Source: Pseudomonas sp. LRP2-20
Lineage (GTDB): Bacteria > Pseudomonadota > Gammaproteobacteria > Pseudomonadales > Pseudomonadaceae
Direction of reading: 5' to 3'
NCBI RefSeq assembly: GCF_024349685.1
Contig: NZ_AP025944.1
Coordinates: forward strand, 2,548,001 to 2,612,000
Length of the DNA: 64,000 nucleotides
A model generated the notes under the pieces. That model was not told the origin of the DNA, searched no databases, and saw only the letters and a list, made by a program, of their open reading frames with translations. A program made the position numbers and the translations under genes. How positions within the stretch are numbered: position 1 is the stretch's first letter; the number at the start of each line of letters is the position of its first letter. Below, piece after piece: positions 48,301 through 52,094 of this stretch.

Positions 48301-48942
48301 TCACCAGCGCAGCAGCCGTGGCCCCAGCCACGCGCCGAGTGCGGTTGGCAGCAGCATGCCGAGGACGTACCACAGGCCCCAGAACGGCACGCCCATCTCC
48401 GGGCAGTGCAGGCAGTAGGCCAAGGTCGCCGTAGACCCGGCCAGCAGGCCGCCTGCTGCGCCGGCCTGGCGCAAGCGGGTCGGTGCCAGGCCGCGCAAGG
48501 CCCAGAACACACTCACCAGCCCCGGCAGCGACAGCAAGGTAATGTTCAGCGCACAGGTGCGCCAGGTGCGGCCGAACAGCAGGTCGGCGCGCGCCTCGAG
48601 GGGGGCGCCGGCAAGGCTGAGCGCCGCGCCCAGCCACAGCAGCAGCAGGGGCAGGCCAAGCAGCCCCCAGGCCATGCCACCGCGCACGCCGGGCCTTGCC
48701 AGCCGGCTGGTCAGCCACAGCCCGAGCACCGCCAGGCTGCTGGGCAAGGCCACCTTGGCCCAGAACAGCGGGGTGCGCGCCACCTCGGCAAGGTCGCTGC
48801 GCACACCGTAGAGGGCCACGGTCATCAGCACGGCCGCCAGCATGCCCAGCAGCATGGCCAGCCCCAGGCGCCTGCCGGTTGCGTTGTGCTGTACCGGGCC
48901 TTCGCCTGCGGCCAGCAGGCTGATCAGCTCATCGGTCTTCAT
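48301..48942 (-). CDS. nrsF: NrsF-type (DUF1109) membrane anti-sigma factor
   Basis: A 213-residue protein with a short cytoplasmic N-terminus (KTDELISLLAAGEGPV) and six hydrophobic segments, matching the DUF1109/NrsF family. NrsF holds SigF-type sigma factors at the membrane until metal stress. The C-terminal part has a cysteine pair, YCLHCPEMG (about 176-184), that could sense metal. The gene overlaps the sigma gene end by 14 bases. The ATG at 48942 with GGAGG five bases upstream is preferred to a TTG at 48954. Confidence 0.85.
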   Translation of the reverse strand: MKTDELISLLAAGEGPVQHNATGRRLGLAMLLGMLAAVLMTVALYGVRSDLAEVARTPLFWAKVALPSSLAVLGLWLTSRLARPGVRGGMAWGLLGLPLLLLWLGAALSLAGAPLEARADLLFGRTWRTCALNITLLSLPGLVSVFWALRGLAPTRLRQAGAAGGLLAGSTATLAYCLHCPEMGVPFWGLWYVLGMLLPTALGAWLGPRLLRW

Positions 48943-49510
48943 GCTTGCCTCCAATCAACCTGGCCAGTGCCTTCAGGCCGCGATGTATGCCCACTTTGAC
49001 CGCAGAGCTGGAAAGCCCGGTCAGTTGTGCGGTTTCTTCCACCGACAGCCCCTGCAGCTTGACGTGGACGATCGGCAGGCGCTGACGCGCCGGCAGTTGC
49101 TCCAGCAGCCTGGCCAGGTCCCGGCTGGCTTCGGCCGGCTCGGCATCGCTGCTGGCGAACAGTTCGGCATCGTCATCCAGTGGCGCGTTGTGCGCATCGA
49201 TGCGGGCCCGGTTGCGCAGGTAATCGACCAGCTTGTAGCGGGCGATCGCCTGCACCCAGGCGGTCAACGGCTGTTGTGCCTGGTAAGTATGCCGCGCGTT
49301 GTGCACCGCCAGCAGCACCTCCTGCAGCAGGTCCTCGATCTCGGCCGGGCGATTGGCCAGGCGCCGGCGCAGAAACGCCCGGATATGCAGCGCCAGGGCC
49401 GCAAGAAATGCCCGGTAGGCCTGCGCATCGCCCGCGAGCCCACCCAGCAGCAAAGTTTGCAGCTGGGCCTCGCGCGCCTCGAGTACTGCCTGTGAGTTAG
49501 TTCGCTGCAT
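48929..49510 (-). CDS. ECF sigma factor, SigF type, partner of NrsF
   Basis: A 193-residue (nominal) extracytoplasmic-function sigma factor. Region 2 covers about 25-95 (RPAEIEDLLQEVLLAVHNARHTY and LTAWVQAIARYKLVDYLRNRARI), and region 4 about 125-185 (LPARQRLPIVHVKLQGLSVEETAQLTGLSSSAVKVGIHRGLKAL). It is coupled to nrsF and divergent from a bufferin operon, the arrangement known for metal-responsive SigF. A GTAACC-N16-CGAA promoter overlaps the nominal ATG at 49510, which would then lie upstream of the RNA start. A TTG at 49453 is one possible in-frame start inside such a transcript, but it has no clear ribosome site. Confidence 0.88.
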   Translation of the reverse strand: MQRTNSQAVLEAREAQLQTLLLGGLAGDAQAYRAFLAALALHIRAFLRRRLANRPAEIEDLLQEVLLAVHNARHTYQAQQPLTAWVQAIARYKLVDYLRNRARIDAHNAPLDDDAELFASSDAEPAEASRDLARLLEQLPARQRLPIVHVKLQGLSVEETAQLTGLSSSAVKVGIHRGLKALARLIGGKHEDR

Positions 49511-49526
49511 GGGCCGCCTGGGTTAC
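49501..49526 (-). promoter_or_regulatory. SigF-type promoter over the sigma gene start
   Basis: Read on the minus strand: GTAACC (49526-49521), a 16-base spacer, CGAA (49504-49501). Extended identity with the divergent copy is TGTAACCC and GCGAACTA at the same distance. It overlaps the nominal sigma ATG, so transcription would begin inside the annotated reading frame, near 49494. Confidence 0.65.
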
Positions 49527-49644
49527 ACCCTGGGTGCATTTACTGTGAGCCGACCGTTAGCGATGCATGGCACCCACGCATGCGCCCCCTGGATTGAAAC
49601 GTTAGGTCGCCGCAGCCAGTTGAGCGAAAAATTTTTCCAGGGCT

Positions 49645-49670
49645 GTAACCCGATCCGCGCACGCCGCGAA
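49645..49670 (+). promoter_or_regulatory. SigF-type promoter of the bufferin operon
   Basis: GTAACC (49645-49650), a 16-base spacer and CGAA (49667-49670). It matches the GTAACC-N16-CGAA pattern described for Caulobacter SigF. The expected RNA start near 49677 leaves a leader of about 50 bases before the precursor gene. Confidence 0.75.
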
Positions 49671-49726
49671 CTACTCCATGAGCCGCCGGTAAAAATGCCA
49701 CGGCCACAGACCCAGGAGACTTCCAC

Positions 49727-50014
49727 ATGAAAACCTTAGCCCTCGCCACCGCCGCCCTGGCCCTCGCTTCGCTGGCAAGCGCCGCCCTGGCGGCCACCCC
49801 GACCCAGCCAGCCGGCAGCGGCGCCGCCATGGAAAAATGCTACGGCGTCGCCATGGCCGGCAAGAACGATTGCAAGGCCGGTGCCGGTACCACCTGTGCC
49901 GGTTCTGCGAAGAAGGATTACGACGGCATGCACTGGAAAAACGTCCCGGCCGGCACCTGCACCTCGATCAAGACCCCGGCCGGCATGGGTTCGCTGACAC
50001 CGATCAAGTCCTGA
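49727..50014 (+). CDS. bufA: Bufferin-type RiPP precursor (DUF2282)
   Basis: A 95-residue exported peptide. The signal peptide is about 1-23 (cleavage near ALAA). The mature part has four cysteines: C38 in MEKCYGVA, C49 in KNDCKAG, C57 in TTCAGS and C78 in PAGTCTSI, with [13 protein letters not shown] typical of DUF2282. In bufferins, an MNIO enzyme converts some of these cysteines to thiooxazole-type heterocycles before export; the product binds copper in the periplasm. AGGAGA stands seven bases before the ATG. The modification in this strain is inferred from the adjacent bufB and bufC. Confidence 0.88.
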
Positions 50015-50030
50015 GCAGGGGAGGCCGACC

Positions 50031-50864
50031 ATGAACGGCAATCTACCGTTGGGCGCCGGCATCGGGCTCAAGGCCGAGCACTATGCCCAGGCGCTCGCGT
50101 GCCGCGCCGAGGGGCTCTGGTACGAGGTCCACCCGGAGAACTACATGGTCGGCGGCCCGCGCCTTGCCTGGTTGATGCGCATCGCTGAGCGCCATCCGCT
50201 GTCGCTGCACGGGGTGGCGCTGTCGCTGGCGGCCGATGCCGACCCGGACCCGCTGCACCTGCAGCGTTTGCGCACGCTGATCGACCAGGCCCGGCCGGTG
50301 CTGGTGTCCGAGCACCTGGCCTGGTCGACCTGGCGCGGTGCCTATCACCCCGACCTGTTGCCATTCCCGCGCAACAGCGAGGCCCTGGTCCGCATCACCC
50401 GCAACATCCAGCGCAGCCAGGAAGCGTTGGGGCGGCGGATCTCGATCGAGAACCCCAGCCACTACCTGCAGCTGGACGGGCACGACTGGGATGAGATCGA
50501 TTTCCTTGCCGAGCTGGCCCGGCGCACCGGCTGCGGCTTGCTGCTGGACGTCAACAACGTGTACGTCAGTGCCCACAACCTGGGCTTCAGTGCCAGTGAC
50601 TACCTGGACCGTTTTCCGGCGCAGGCCATCAGCGAAGTGCACCTGGCGGGTTACAGCCATGATGCGCAAGGCAGTTTGTTGATCGACTCCCATGATGCGC
50701 GCATCGCCGAGCCGGTCTGGGCGCTTTACCGGCGCCTGATCGCACGAATCGGCCCGCGCCCGACACTGGTCGAGCGTGATGGCAATGTTCCGCCTTTCAC
50801 CGAGCTGCTGGGCGAACGCGCCGTGGCCCAGTCGGCCCTGAGTGGCCCGGGAGTGCAGCCATGA
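50031..50864 (+). CDS. bufB: MNIO-family (DUF692) RiPP-modifying oxidase
   Basis: A 277-residue TIM-barrel enzyme of the multinuclear non-heme iron oxidase family. Likely metal ligands are present: H60 (SLHGVAL), E94 (SEHLAW), E140 (ISIENPSHY), D173 with N175-N176 (LLLDVNNVYVSAHN), H182, E202, H204 (SEVHLAGYSH), D219 and H221. It would modify cysteines of the bufA product, helped by the DUF2063 protein. GGGGAGG precedes the ATG, and the stop overlaps the next gene by ATGA. Confidence 0.9.
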   Translation: MNGNLPLGAGIGLKAEHYAQALACRAEGLWYEVHPENYMVGGPRLAWLMRIAERHPLSLHGVALSLAADADPDPLHLQRLRTLIDQARPVLVSEHLAWSTWRGAYHPDLLPFPRNSEALVRITRNIQRSQEALGRRISIENPSHYLQLDGHDWDEIDFLAELARRTGCGLLLDVNNVYVSAHNLGFSASDYLDRFPAQAISEVHLAGYSHDAQGSLLIDSHDARIAEPVWALYRRLIARIGPRPTLVERDGNVPPFTELLGERAVAQSALSGPGVQP

Positions 50865-51616
50865 ACCTGACCTTGAGCGAGTTTCAGGACGCCTTCGTTG
50901 CAGCCTTGCAGGGGCGCCCGGCACCGGGCCTGGCGGCGCTCACCAGGCAGCCGGCGTTCGCGGTGTACCGCAACACGGTCATGGCCGGTTGCGTGGAGGC
51001 ATTGTGTGCCAACTTCCCCAGCGTCCTGACCCTGGTCGGGCGCGAATGGATGGAGGCTGTGGCGGCGGCCTACGCAGGGCAAATGCCGCCCGGCGATCCC
51101 CGGCTGATCCATTACGGCGCAGGCTTCGCCGACTTTCTCGAACAGGCGCAGGCACAACATGGCGTGCCGTACCTGGCCGCGGTTGCGCGGCTGGATACCT
51201 GCTGGAACGAGGCCTTCAGCGCAGTCGATGCACCTTGCCTCGACCTTGCCGAGCTGGCCGGCATGACGGCCGGCGACCTTGCGCGTAGCGTCTTGTACCC
51301 CCGTGACAATGCCCGCTGGCACTGGTGCGCGGAGCACCCGGCCTACCGCCTGTGGCGCTGCGGCCGCGAGCAGCTGGAGTGGGCAGACGATCAGCCCTGG
51401 GACGGCGAAGGCGTGCTGTTCGTCGGCAGCCCCGAGGGCGTCAGCCACCAGCCGTTGGAGCAGGGCGGTTGTGCGTTCCTGCAAGCCTGCGCAGCCGGGC
51501 AGCCCCTTGAACAGGCCTCATCGTTTGCCCAACACACCCAACCGGACCTGGACTTCAGCGACCTGCTCGGCCGCCTGATCAGTGCACAGGTCTTCTGCCC
51601 GCTGAGCTTTCCCTGA
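50861..51616 (+). CDS. bufC: DUF2063-domain partner protein of the MNIO enzyme
   Basis: A 251-residue protein. The N-terminal DUF2063 domain is clear ([56 protein letters not shown], about 5-60). In MNIO systems this partner recognises the precursor peptide and brings it to the oxidase. The C-terminal half probably forms the peptide-binding domain. Translational coupling to bufB supports a complex. Confidence 0.87.
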
Positions 51617-51626
51617 GGAAACCACC

Positions 51627-52094
51627 ATGGACCACGTCCACCCCACGCCTTTGGCCAGCAACCTGCGGCACGCCTGGAACCGGCTTGCCGAGTCCCTGCA
51701 ACAGCACCTGAGCGACAGCGTACTGTGCCTGGTTGCGCGGTTCGGCATTGCCTCGGTGTTCTTCCTTTCCGGGCGCACCAAGGTCGAAGGCTTGCTGACC
51801 ATCACGCCGAGCACTTACGAGCTGTTTCGCACCGAGTATGCCTTGCCGCTGATTTCCCCCTGGCTGGCGGCACACCTGGCCACCTACGCCGAGCACCTGT
51901 TCTCGCTGCTGCTGGTGCTGGGCCTGATGACCCGCCTGTCGGCGCTGGCACTGCTGGGCATGACCACGGTGATCGAGGTGTTCGTCTACCCCGATGCCTG
52001 GCCCACCCACCTGACCTGGGCAGGGTTGCTGCTGCTGTTGATCGCGCGCGGGGCGGGCAGGCTGTCCCTGGATCACTTGCTGAAGGTGCGCTGA
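51627..52094 (+). CDS. DoxX-family membrane protein of the bufferin operon
   Basis: A 155-residue inner-membrane protein with four hydrophobic segments and the DoxX pattern [64 protein letters not shown]. DoxX proteins are often the last gene of DUF2282-DUF692-DUF2063 operons; their job there is not settled, perhaps in redox or thiol balance at the membrane. It begins ten bases after bufC and converges with the class V aminotransferase gene, leaving 16 bases. Confidence 0.83.

Follow-up and report, generated by a model that had tools for sequence, protein, structure and literature searches.

A 64,000-nucleotide stretch of the Pseudomonas sp. LRP2-20 genome (contig NZ_AP025944.1, positions 2,548,001 to 2,612,000; referred to as the window, from whose first letter all coordinates are counted) was found to carry, at 48301-52094, what is very probably a Buf1 bufferin cluster under an ECF16-type SigF/NrsF switch (ECF, extracytoplasmic function). 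The cassette is ordinary for its kind, one more locus of the large known bufferin family, because sigma and NrsF genes within Buf1 clusters (PMC12452194), paired promoters of divergent operons in Sinorhizobium (PMC6180224), like promoters at both operons in Caulobacter (PMC3511200), and the Pseudomonas 'Pep1' operon (PMC8719888) have all been reported. Judged from the sequence, it is unusual in one respect only: the promoter belonging to the switch straddles the sigma gene's start codon. The following features were assigned:

48301..48942, minus strand: nrsF, membrane anti-sigma factor (PF06532, E 3.9e-73, 246.1 bits, cut-off 26.8); 213 amino acids from the ATG at 48942
48929..49510, minus strand: sigF, ECF16-type sigma factor (Sigma70_r4_2, E 4e-14; NF009188, 311.6 bits, cut-off 250); 193 amino acids from the ATG at 49510
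49501..49527, minus strand: sigma-side SigF-type promoter TGTAACC-N16-CGAA, exact match at a conserved position; predicted transcription start near 49495
49508..49510, minus strand: sigF start codon ATG, in the promoter spacer upstream of the -10 element (from the sequence and the conserved position)
49627..49636, plus strand: A5T5 tract just upstream of the bufA-side -35 element (from the sequence and an alignment of close relatives)
49644..49670, plus strand: bufA-side SigF-type promoter TGTAACC-N16-CGAA, exact match; predicted transcription start near 49676, giving a leader of about 51 nucleotides
49727..50014, plus strand: bufA, DUF2282 precursor (PF10048, E 1.9e-24, 85.8 bits, cut-off 22.4); 95 amino acids
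50031..50864, plus strand: bufB, MNIO (DUF692) maturase (MbnB_TglH_ChrH, E 1.2e-93; NF050167, 350.3 bits, cut-off 310)
50861..51616, plus strand: bufC, DUF2063 partner protein (PF09836, E 9.3e-19, 67.9 bits, cut-off 27.2), overlapping bufB by 4 nucleotides
51627..52094, plus strand: DoxX-family membrane protein (DoxX Pfam, E 3.5e-16)

A sequence-only reading had predicted these six genes, with their domains and strands, as a bufferin-type system with every part within 3.8 kb. Open reading frame coordinates and Pfam searches bore out the gene content and its extent, and the MNIO exceeded the NCBIfam BufB cut-off (350.3 versus 310 bits), in support of the bufferin-type assignment. Three profile scores weigh against the reading of cluster and switch: the DoxX-family protein reached 50.5 bits with the NCBIfam HvfX model (cut-off 80), the HvfC model also stayed under its cut-off, and the NrsF equivalog model gave 148.2 bits where 300 is the cut-off. 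The anti-sigma factor is thus an NrsF-family protein by Pfam, not NCBI's equivalog. Its start is probably the ATG at 48942, which has a GGAGG five bases before it, instead of the TTG at 48954 of the longest open reading frame.

The ECF16 consensus has been published as GTAACC-N16-CGAA (PMC3511200), and an ECF16-type motif is given elsewhere as (T/C)GTAAC-N17-CGAA (PMC8315932). The published SigF promoter precedes both transcription units, which supports the SigF/NrsF switch proposed before. The extended form TGTAACC-N16-CGAAC occurs exactly at two sites only in the 6.03-Mb genome, both of them here, facing each other between the operons, and SigF-RNA polymerase would be expected to read both. 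When one mismatch was allowed, this form gave 9 matches in the source genome versus 19 for the reversed control. Further regulon members sought by the shorter motif GTAACC-N16-CGAA were rejected, since its exact matches (6) were fewer than those of the reversed control (10); one of the four matches outside the cluster (L124), inspected by eye, showed no plausible target. As only the two local sites match the extended form and the shorter motif does not rise above its control, the SigF regulon is probably local to this cluster. The A5T5 tract may be a UP-element-like sequence or the tail of a weak minus-strand terminator-like hairpin. Two terminator-like hairpins were seen between sigF and bufA (49515-49536 on the plus strand and 49653-49637 on the minus strand; 0.2 expected); they overlap both promoter motifs and are possibly a by-product of the motif sequences.

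Conservation was followed in 110 loci fetched by NrsF, comprising 30 from Pseudomonas (one being the window's own) and 80 of the 87 others found. A DUF2282 match was present in 96 of the 110, with a SigF-type motif at most 400 nucleotides upstream in 93 of these, and the divergent arrangement is therefore beyond chance. A sigma match was present in 107 loci, 85 of which had the motif at the sigma gene. Of the 30 Pseudomonas loci (L013-L042, L026 being the window's own), 29 showed the divergent arrangement with two motifs, and the remaining one (L025) ends before bufA. The -35 elements of the facing promoters were separated by a median of 116 nucleotides (79 loci). A wider set of 155 loci (L013-L122 and L129-L173) was used to classify 140 sigma-nrsF pairs. 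Because the aligned loci are related by descent, and the two locus sets have some species in common, none of these counts is independent, which weighs against the readings built on them. NrsF itself is patchily distributed: among sampled Pseudomonas genomes a match was found in 47 of 298 (45 of them over the family cut-off), in a phylum-wide sample in 81 of 398 genomes (75 over it), and in a class sample in 21 of 369 (15 over it). One locus outside the Pseudomonas set (L052), from a record named Pantoea sp. Ap-967, has the six genes with 76-94% protein identity to the window, and this genome is possibly mislabelled.

On the sigma side the elements follow in the order -35, ATG of sigF, -10, the start codon being straddled by the motif. 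An ATG stood at motif offset 17 in 80 of the 85 sigma-side loci, none of which was lost to locus ends, and a GTG in one more (L077), versus 3 of 93 loci on the bufA side; counted by distinct sequences, ATG or GTG was found there in 66 of 70. Shine-Dalgarno-like words of at least three bases, many of them weak, were present in the spacer at 52 of the 85 sigma-side and 11 of the 93 bufA-side promoters, and words of at least four bases at 26 and 5 of the same loci, respectively. In 92 of the 140 pairs of the wider set the motif contained an in-frame ATG or GTG; 31 pairs had other layouts, and 17 had no motif. Among the 92, the start lay at offset 17 in 86, at offset 26 in four, where it overlaps the last -10 base, and at offsets 19 and 11 in one each. 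One of the 31 other layouts (L072) has an ATG in the motif, but the sigma gene has no open frame starting at that codon.

The sequence behind this start codon, sigF codons 5-19, behaved as coding sequence: third positions held 42% of the differences (33.5% in the bufA leader), and in-frame stops within the 16 codons that follow the -10 element were found in none of 70 distinct sequences, versus 29 and 31 of 70 for the other two frames. Codon 3 was CGA in 70 of 70 and codon 4 ACT in 65 of 70, compared with 126 of 1328 Arg codons and 40 of 408 Thr codons, respectively, in the rest of these genes. This codon bias argues that DNA is held at the sigma-side site, and not protein alone. Judging from these patterns, selection seems to act on both the sigF start codon and the promoter.

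In Bradyrhizobium the ecfF transcript begins 6 bp past the -10 box. This spacing, applied here, would put the start of SigF-driven transcription some 15 bases into sigF, near 49495, and because of this position the message should not make full-length SigF, yielding a shortened SigF or only NrsF. The SigF-driven transcript would carry nrsF and at most an N-terminally shortened sigF, and transcription starting further upstream should be the source of full-length SigF. The nrsF ATG at 48942 has its own GGAGG; the SigF-driven message may favour NrsF over SigF, boosting the brake and not the accelerator. The geometry on the sigma side fits an anti-sigma-only promoter of the SigH-RshA type, for which Corynebacterium glutamicum provides the precedent of a sigma-dependent promoter transcribing the anti-sigma gene only (PMC3489674); SigH-RshA is another sigma/anti-sigma system, whereas the site described here sits at the sigma start codon. 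We tentatively propose, while expecting that it may well turn out otherwise, that in Pseudomonas and many Burkholderiales the promoter is fixed across the sigF start, that active SigF thereby gives rise to a message for its brake NrsF but not for full-length SigF, and that the switch is a self-limiting pulse generator and not a positive feedback loop, stand-alone SigF-promoted nrsF genes being the same logic separated.

Several observations weigh against this wiring. A sigma-70 consensus scan of 49480-49760 detected no upstream sigF promoter (0 found, 0.1 in shuffled sequences), a terminator-like hairpin (49653-49637) lies upstream of sigF on its own strand, and the upstream transcript needed for full-length SigF may have to start perhaps within about 100 bases. 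The Bradyrhizobium ecfF-osrA pair (ECF16) is alike in that the sigma-dependent transcription start overlaps the annotated ATG, and there the overlap was settled by moving the start codon downstream. Were the annotated sigF start likewise wrong, the true start codon would lie downstream, and the motif on the sigma side would be an ordinary positive autoregulatory promoter, an explanation that we consider unlikely. It draws on that re-annotation and on 31 of the 123 sigma-nrsF pairs showing a motif on the sigma side: these 31 have no in-frame ATG or GTG inside it, and in 21 of them the first one lies 9-21 nucleotides past the -10 element. Start-like codons (ATG, GTG, or TTG) were also found at codons 7-12 in 36 of 66 distinct straddling loci (ATG or GTG in 20), and eight of the 66 had none in codons 7-30. 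Against a downstream start, the ATG inside the motif is kept (80 of 85, plus the GTG of L077) although a promoter of this type does not need one, as the bufA side shows (3 of 93), and coding conservation starts ahead of any conserved downstream start. In contrast to Bradyrhizobium, the window's sigF offers as the sole candidate within codons 2-50 a TTG at codon 20.

Much less probable still is a roadblock, in which SigF-polymerase sitting over the sigF start region would block upstream transcription and make little RNA itself. The overlap of the site with the start region and the 116-nucleotide median separation of the -35 elements would suit such a role. Directly after CGAA, however, the two promoters share their first, second, and third base in 75, 97, and 85% of 73 loci, respectively, as two working promoters would; further on they agree only slightly (a mean of 6.9 of 16 bases versus 5.7 of 16 in the spacer).

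Free-standing SigF-promoted nrsF genes fit the negative-feedback logic proposed for the sigma-side promoter, without proving it. A profile search of the 155 loci gave 172 nrsF frames, with the sigma gene upstream in 146, downstream in 14, and not adjacent in 12; eight of these 12 had a SigF-type motif of their own 45-164 nucleotides upstream. As a control, the loose motif matched 309 of 7488 windows of about 290 nucleotides taken from the same loci, true sites included, and its reversed form, which gives the chance level, 18 of 7488.

One sigma-less nrsF lies next to a buf operon on a plasmid of Pseudomonas sp. p1(2021b) that is typed as conjugative. There (L129, NZ_CP083747.1, 97-8210) a sigF-nrsF pair faces a lone DUF2282 gene and a sigma-less nrsF faces a full buf operon, with a Tn3-family transposase and a recombinase near this double cassette. 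Eight Herbaspirillum/Collimonas loci (L093, L098, L103-L106, L111, L116) showed an nrsF-sigF-nrsF sandwich behind a SigF-type motif. The two Dyella loci (L095 and L100) each had two nrsF genes facing buf genes, each with a SigF-type motif, and no sigma match within the 10.6-kb stretch.

The precursor contains exactly four cysteines, at the positions claimed before (38, 49, 57, and 78), and an alignment of 55 sequences (the window plus 54 homologues picked from 95 reading frames by length and the presence of at least four cysteines, a number that all 95 frames reach) showed them to be invariant in every one. Its N-terminus is hydrophobic and of the Sec type, with an Ala-x-Ala site, as judged by eye. 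With the NCBIfam BufA2 model it gave 23.8 bits, below the cut-off of 60 that marks Buf2. BufB was similar to the solved MNIO structure 3bww (E 1.3e-34); a profile search found no solved structure of a Buf1 peptide. For Buf1 the two central cysteines are reported to be modified and the outer two to form a disulphide (PMC12452194), the Caulobacter peptide carrying thiooxazoles with reported copper chelation (PMC12452194); related thiooxazole peptides have been grouped as captophorins (PMC12668002). By analogy, Cys49 and Cys57 are the residues expected to be modified here. BufB-BufC would convert them to thiooxazoles, Sec export followed by formation of a Cys38-Cys78 disulphide would complete the peptide, and the product would buffer copper in the periplasm.

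NrsF would keep SigF at the inner membrane, as in Caulobacter and Bradyrhizobium, until excess copper or other thiol-reactive or oxidising stress hits Cys130 and Cys180 and SigF is released; both residues were invariant in 16 of 16 aligned proteins (the window and 15 fetched loci). In Caulobacter, SigF responds to copper and a sigF mutant is Cu-sensitive (PMC8224329), and the SigF-dependent genes are induced by chromate and cadmium but not by reactive-oxygen-generating agents (PMC3511200). Bradyrhizobium OsrA responds to H2O2 via Cys179, with Cys129 needed to bind EcfF (PMC3420878), and the Brucella BcrS/AbcS pair responds to HOCl (PMC8315932). Speaking against the overall reading, Sinorhizobium RpoE7 fusions gave no response to H2O2, Cd, or chromate (PMC6180224).

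An oxidant signal is also plausible for this switch. DUF2282 matches were absent from 14 of the 110 loci, and in eight of these (L065, L076-L079, L081, L087, L088) the same sigF-nrsF pair with paired motifs faces other cargo, namely a Met-rich MSKD-repeat secreted peptide, a cytochrome b561, and a molybdopterin oxidoreductase (domains named on L077). The sensor is hence not specific to bufferin cargo. The other six gave no such cargo match, and two of them (L025 and L050) end at the locus boundary. The switch might therefore sense mainly oxidants such as HOCl or peroxide, with the bufferin serving in thiol or oxidant protection or in the capture of copper freed by oxidation more than against copper excess. 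We hold this to be a real contender, albeit one with the odds somewhat against it. The eight loci resemble the Brucella HOCl system, OsrA requires Cys179 for its H2O2 response, and the Caulobacter SigF regulon includes MsrPQ, the sigF mutant being impaired in stationary-phase oxidative stress (PMC8224329). The metal responses of the Caulobacter SigF genes, to copper as well as to Cr and Cd but not to reactive-oxygen agents, point the other way, as does the cargo here, a bufferin of the type reported to chelate copper in Caulobacter.

Among the closest known systems, Buf1/SigF-NrsF of Caulobacter vibrioides (CC3252-CC3257) shares with the cassette the promoter consensus and the NrsF cysteine pair, as well as the set of genes and, by locus number, the order of neighbours (PMC3511200, PMC8224329). 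In Caulobacter a second buf operon and MsrPQ are under SigF control as well (PMC3511200, PMC8224329), whereas by sequence no sites other than the two local ones stand out here. Sinorhizobium meliloti rpoE7-ecfR7/SMb20530-SMb20527 shares the divergent operons and two ECF16 promoters (PMC6180224); in its listed rpoE7 promoter the -10 element is followed by GGGAGGAA, so that the start codon is likely downstream of the -10 element, in contrast to its upstream position here. Cupriavidus metallidurans CH34 (L130, taken as the gig cluster in a record that is not annotated) likewise has DUF2282, MNIO, DUF2063, and DoxX genes facing sigma and NrsF genes, with paired motifs. Its sigma-side motif, however, contains no in-frame ATG or GTG, the first lying 34 nucleotides past the -10 element and an out-of-frame ATG about 14 nucleotides past it. 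The Pseudomonas 'Pep1' cluster has the same DUF2282-DUF692-DUF2063-DoxX series, and the available part of its description does not mention the sigma pair (PMC8719888). NrsF proteins of P. putida and P. entomophila are included in a published alignment (PMC3511200). PSPTO_1043 of P. syringae, considered as the same system, was rejected because it is described as an RpoE/ChrR-like pair. In Streptomyces, one sigma gene gives two SigR isoforms from two promoters (PMC4921905). A partial literature search found no published account of the start-codon-straddling layout as a group feature and no anti-sigma-only reading for ECF16, the nearest being the single re-annotation of Bradyrhizobium ecfF.

The cluster lies between a LuxR-type regulator and a convergent aminotransferase, and no link to either was seen. 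The source genome (6,034,532 bases) gave one match for DUF2282, three for MNIO, and one for NrsF. The other two MNIO loci (L002, 2744849-2745634; L003, 3894098-3894883) have EGKCG-repeat precursors, one of them with EF hands in a domain search; in the locus without EF hands, as judged by eye, the MNIO is followed by a DUF2063-like frame, and a DoxX-like frame lies convergent.

Now that both the promoters and the sensor cysteines have been placed, along with the cysteine pair expected to be modified, the pathway becomes testable in Pseudomonas. If the reading of the promoter over the start codon is true, ECF16 autoregulation via an own promoter, as described in Bradyrhizobium and Brucella, would not apply to this branch, whose bufferin response would take the form of a pulse with its shut-off built into the DNA.

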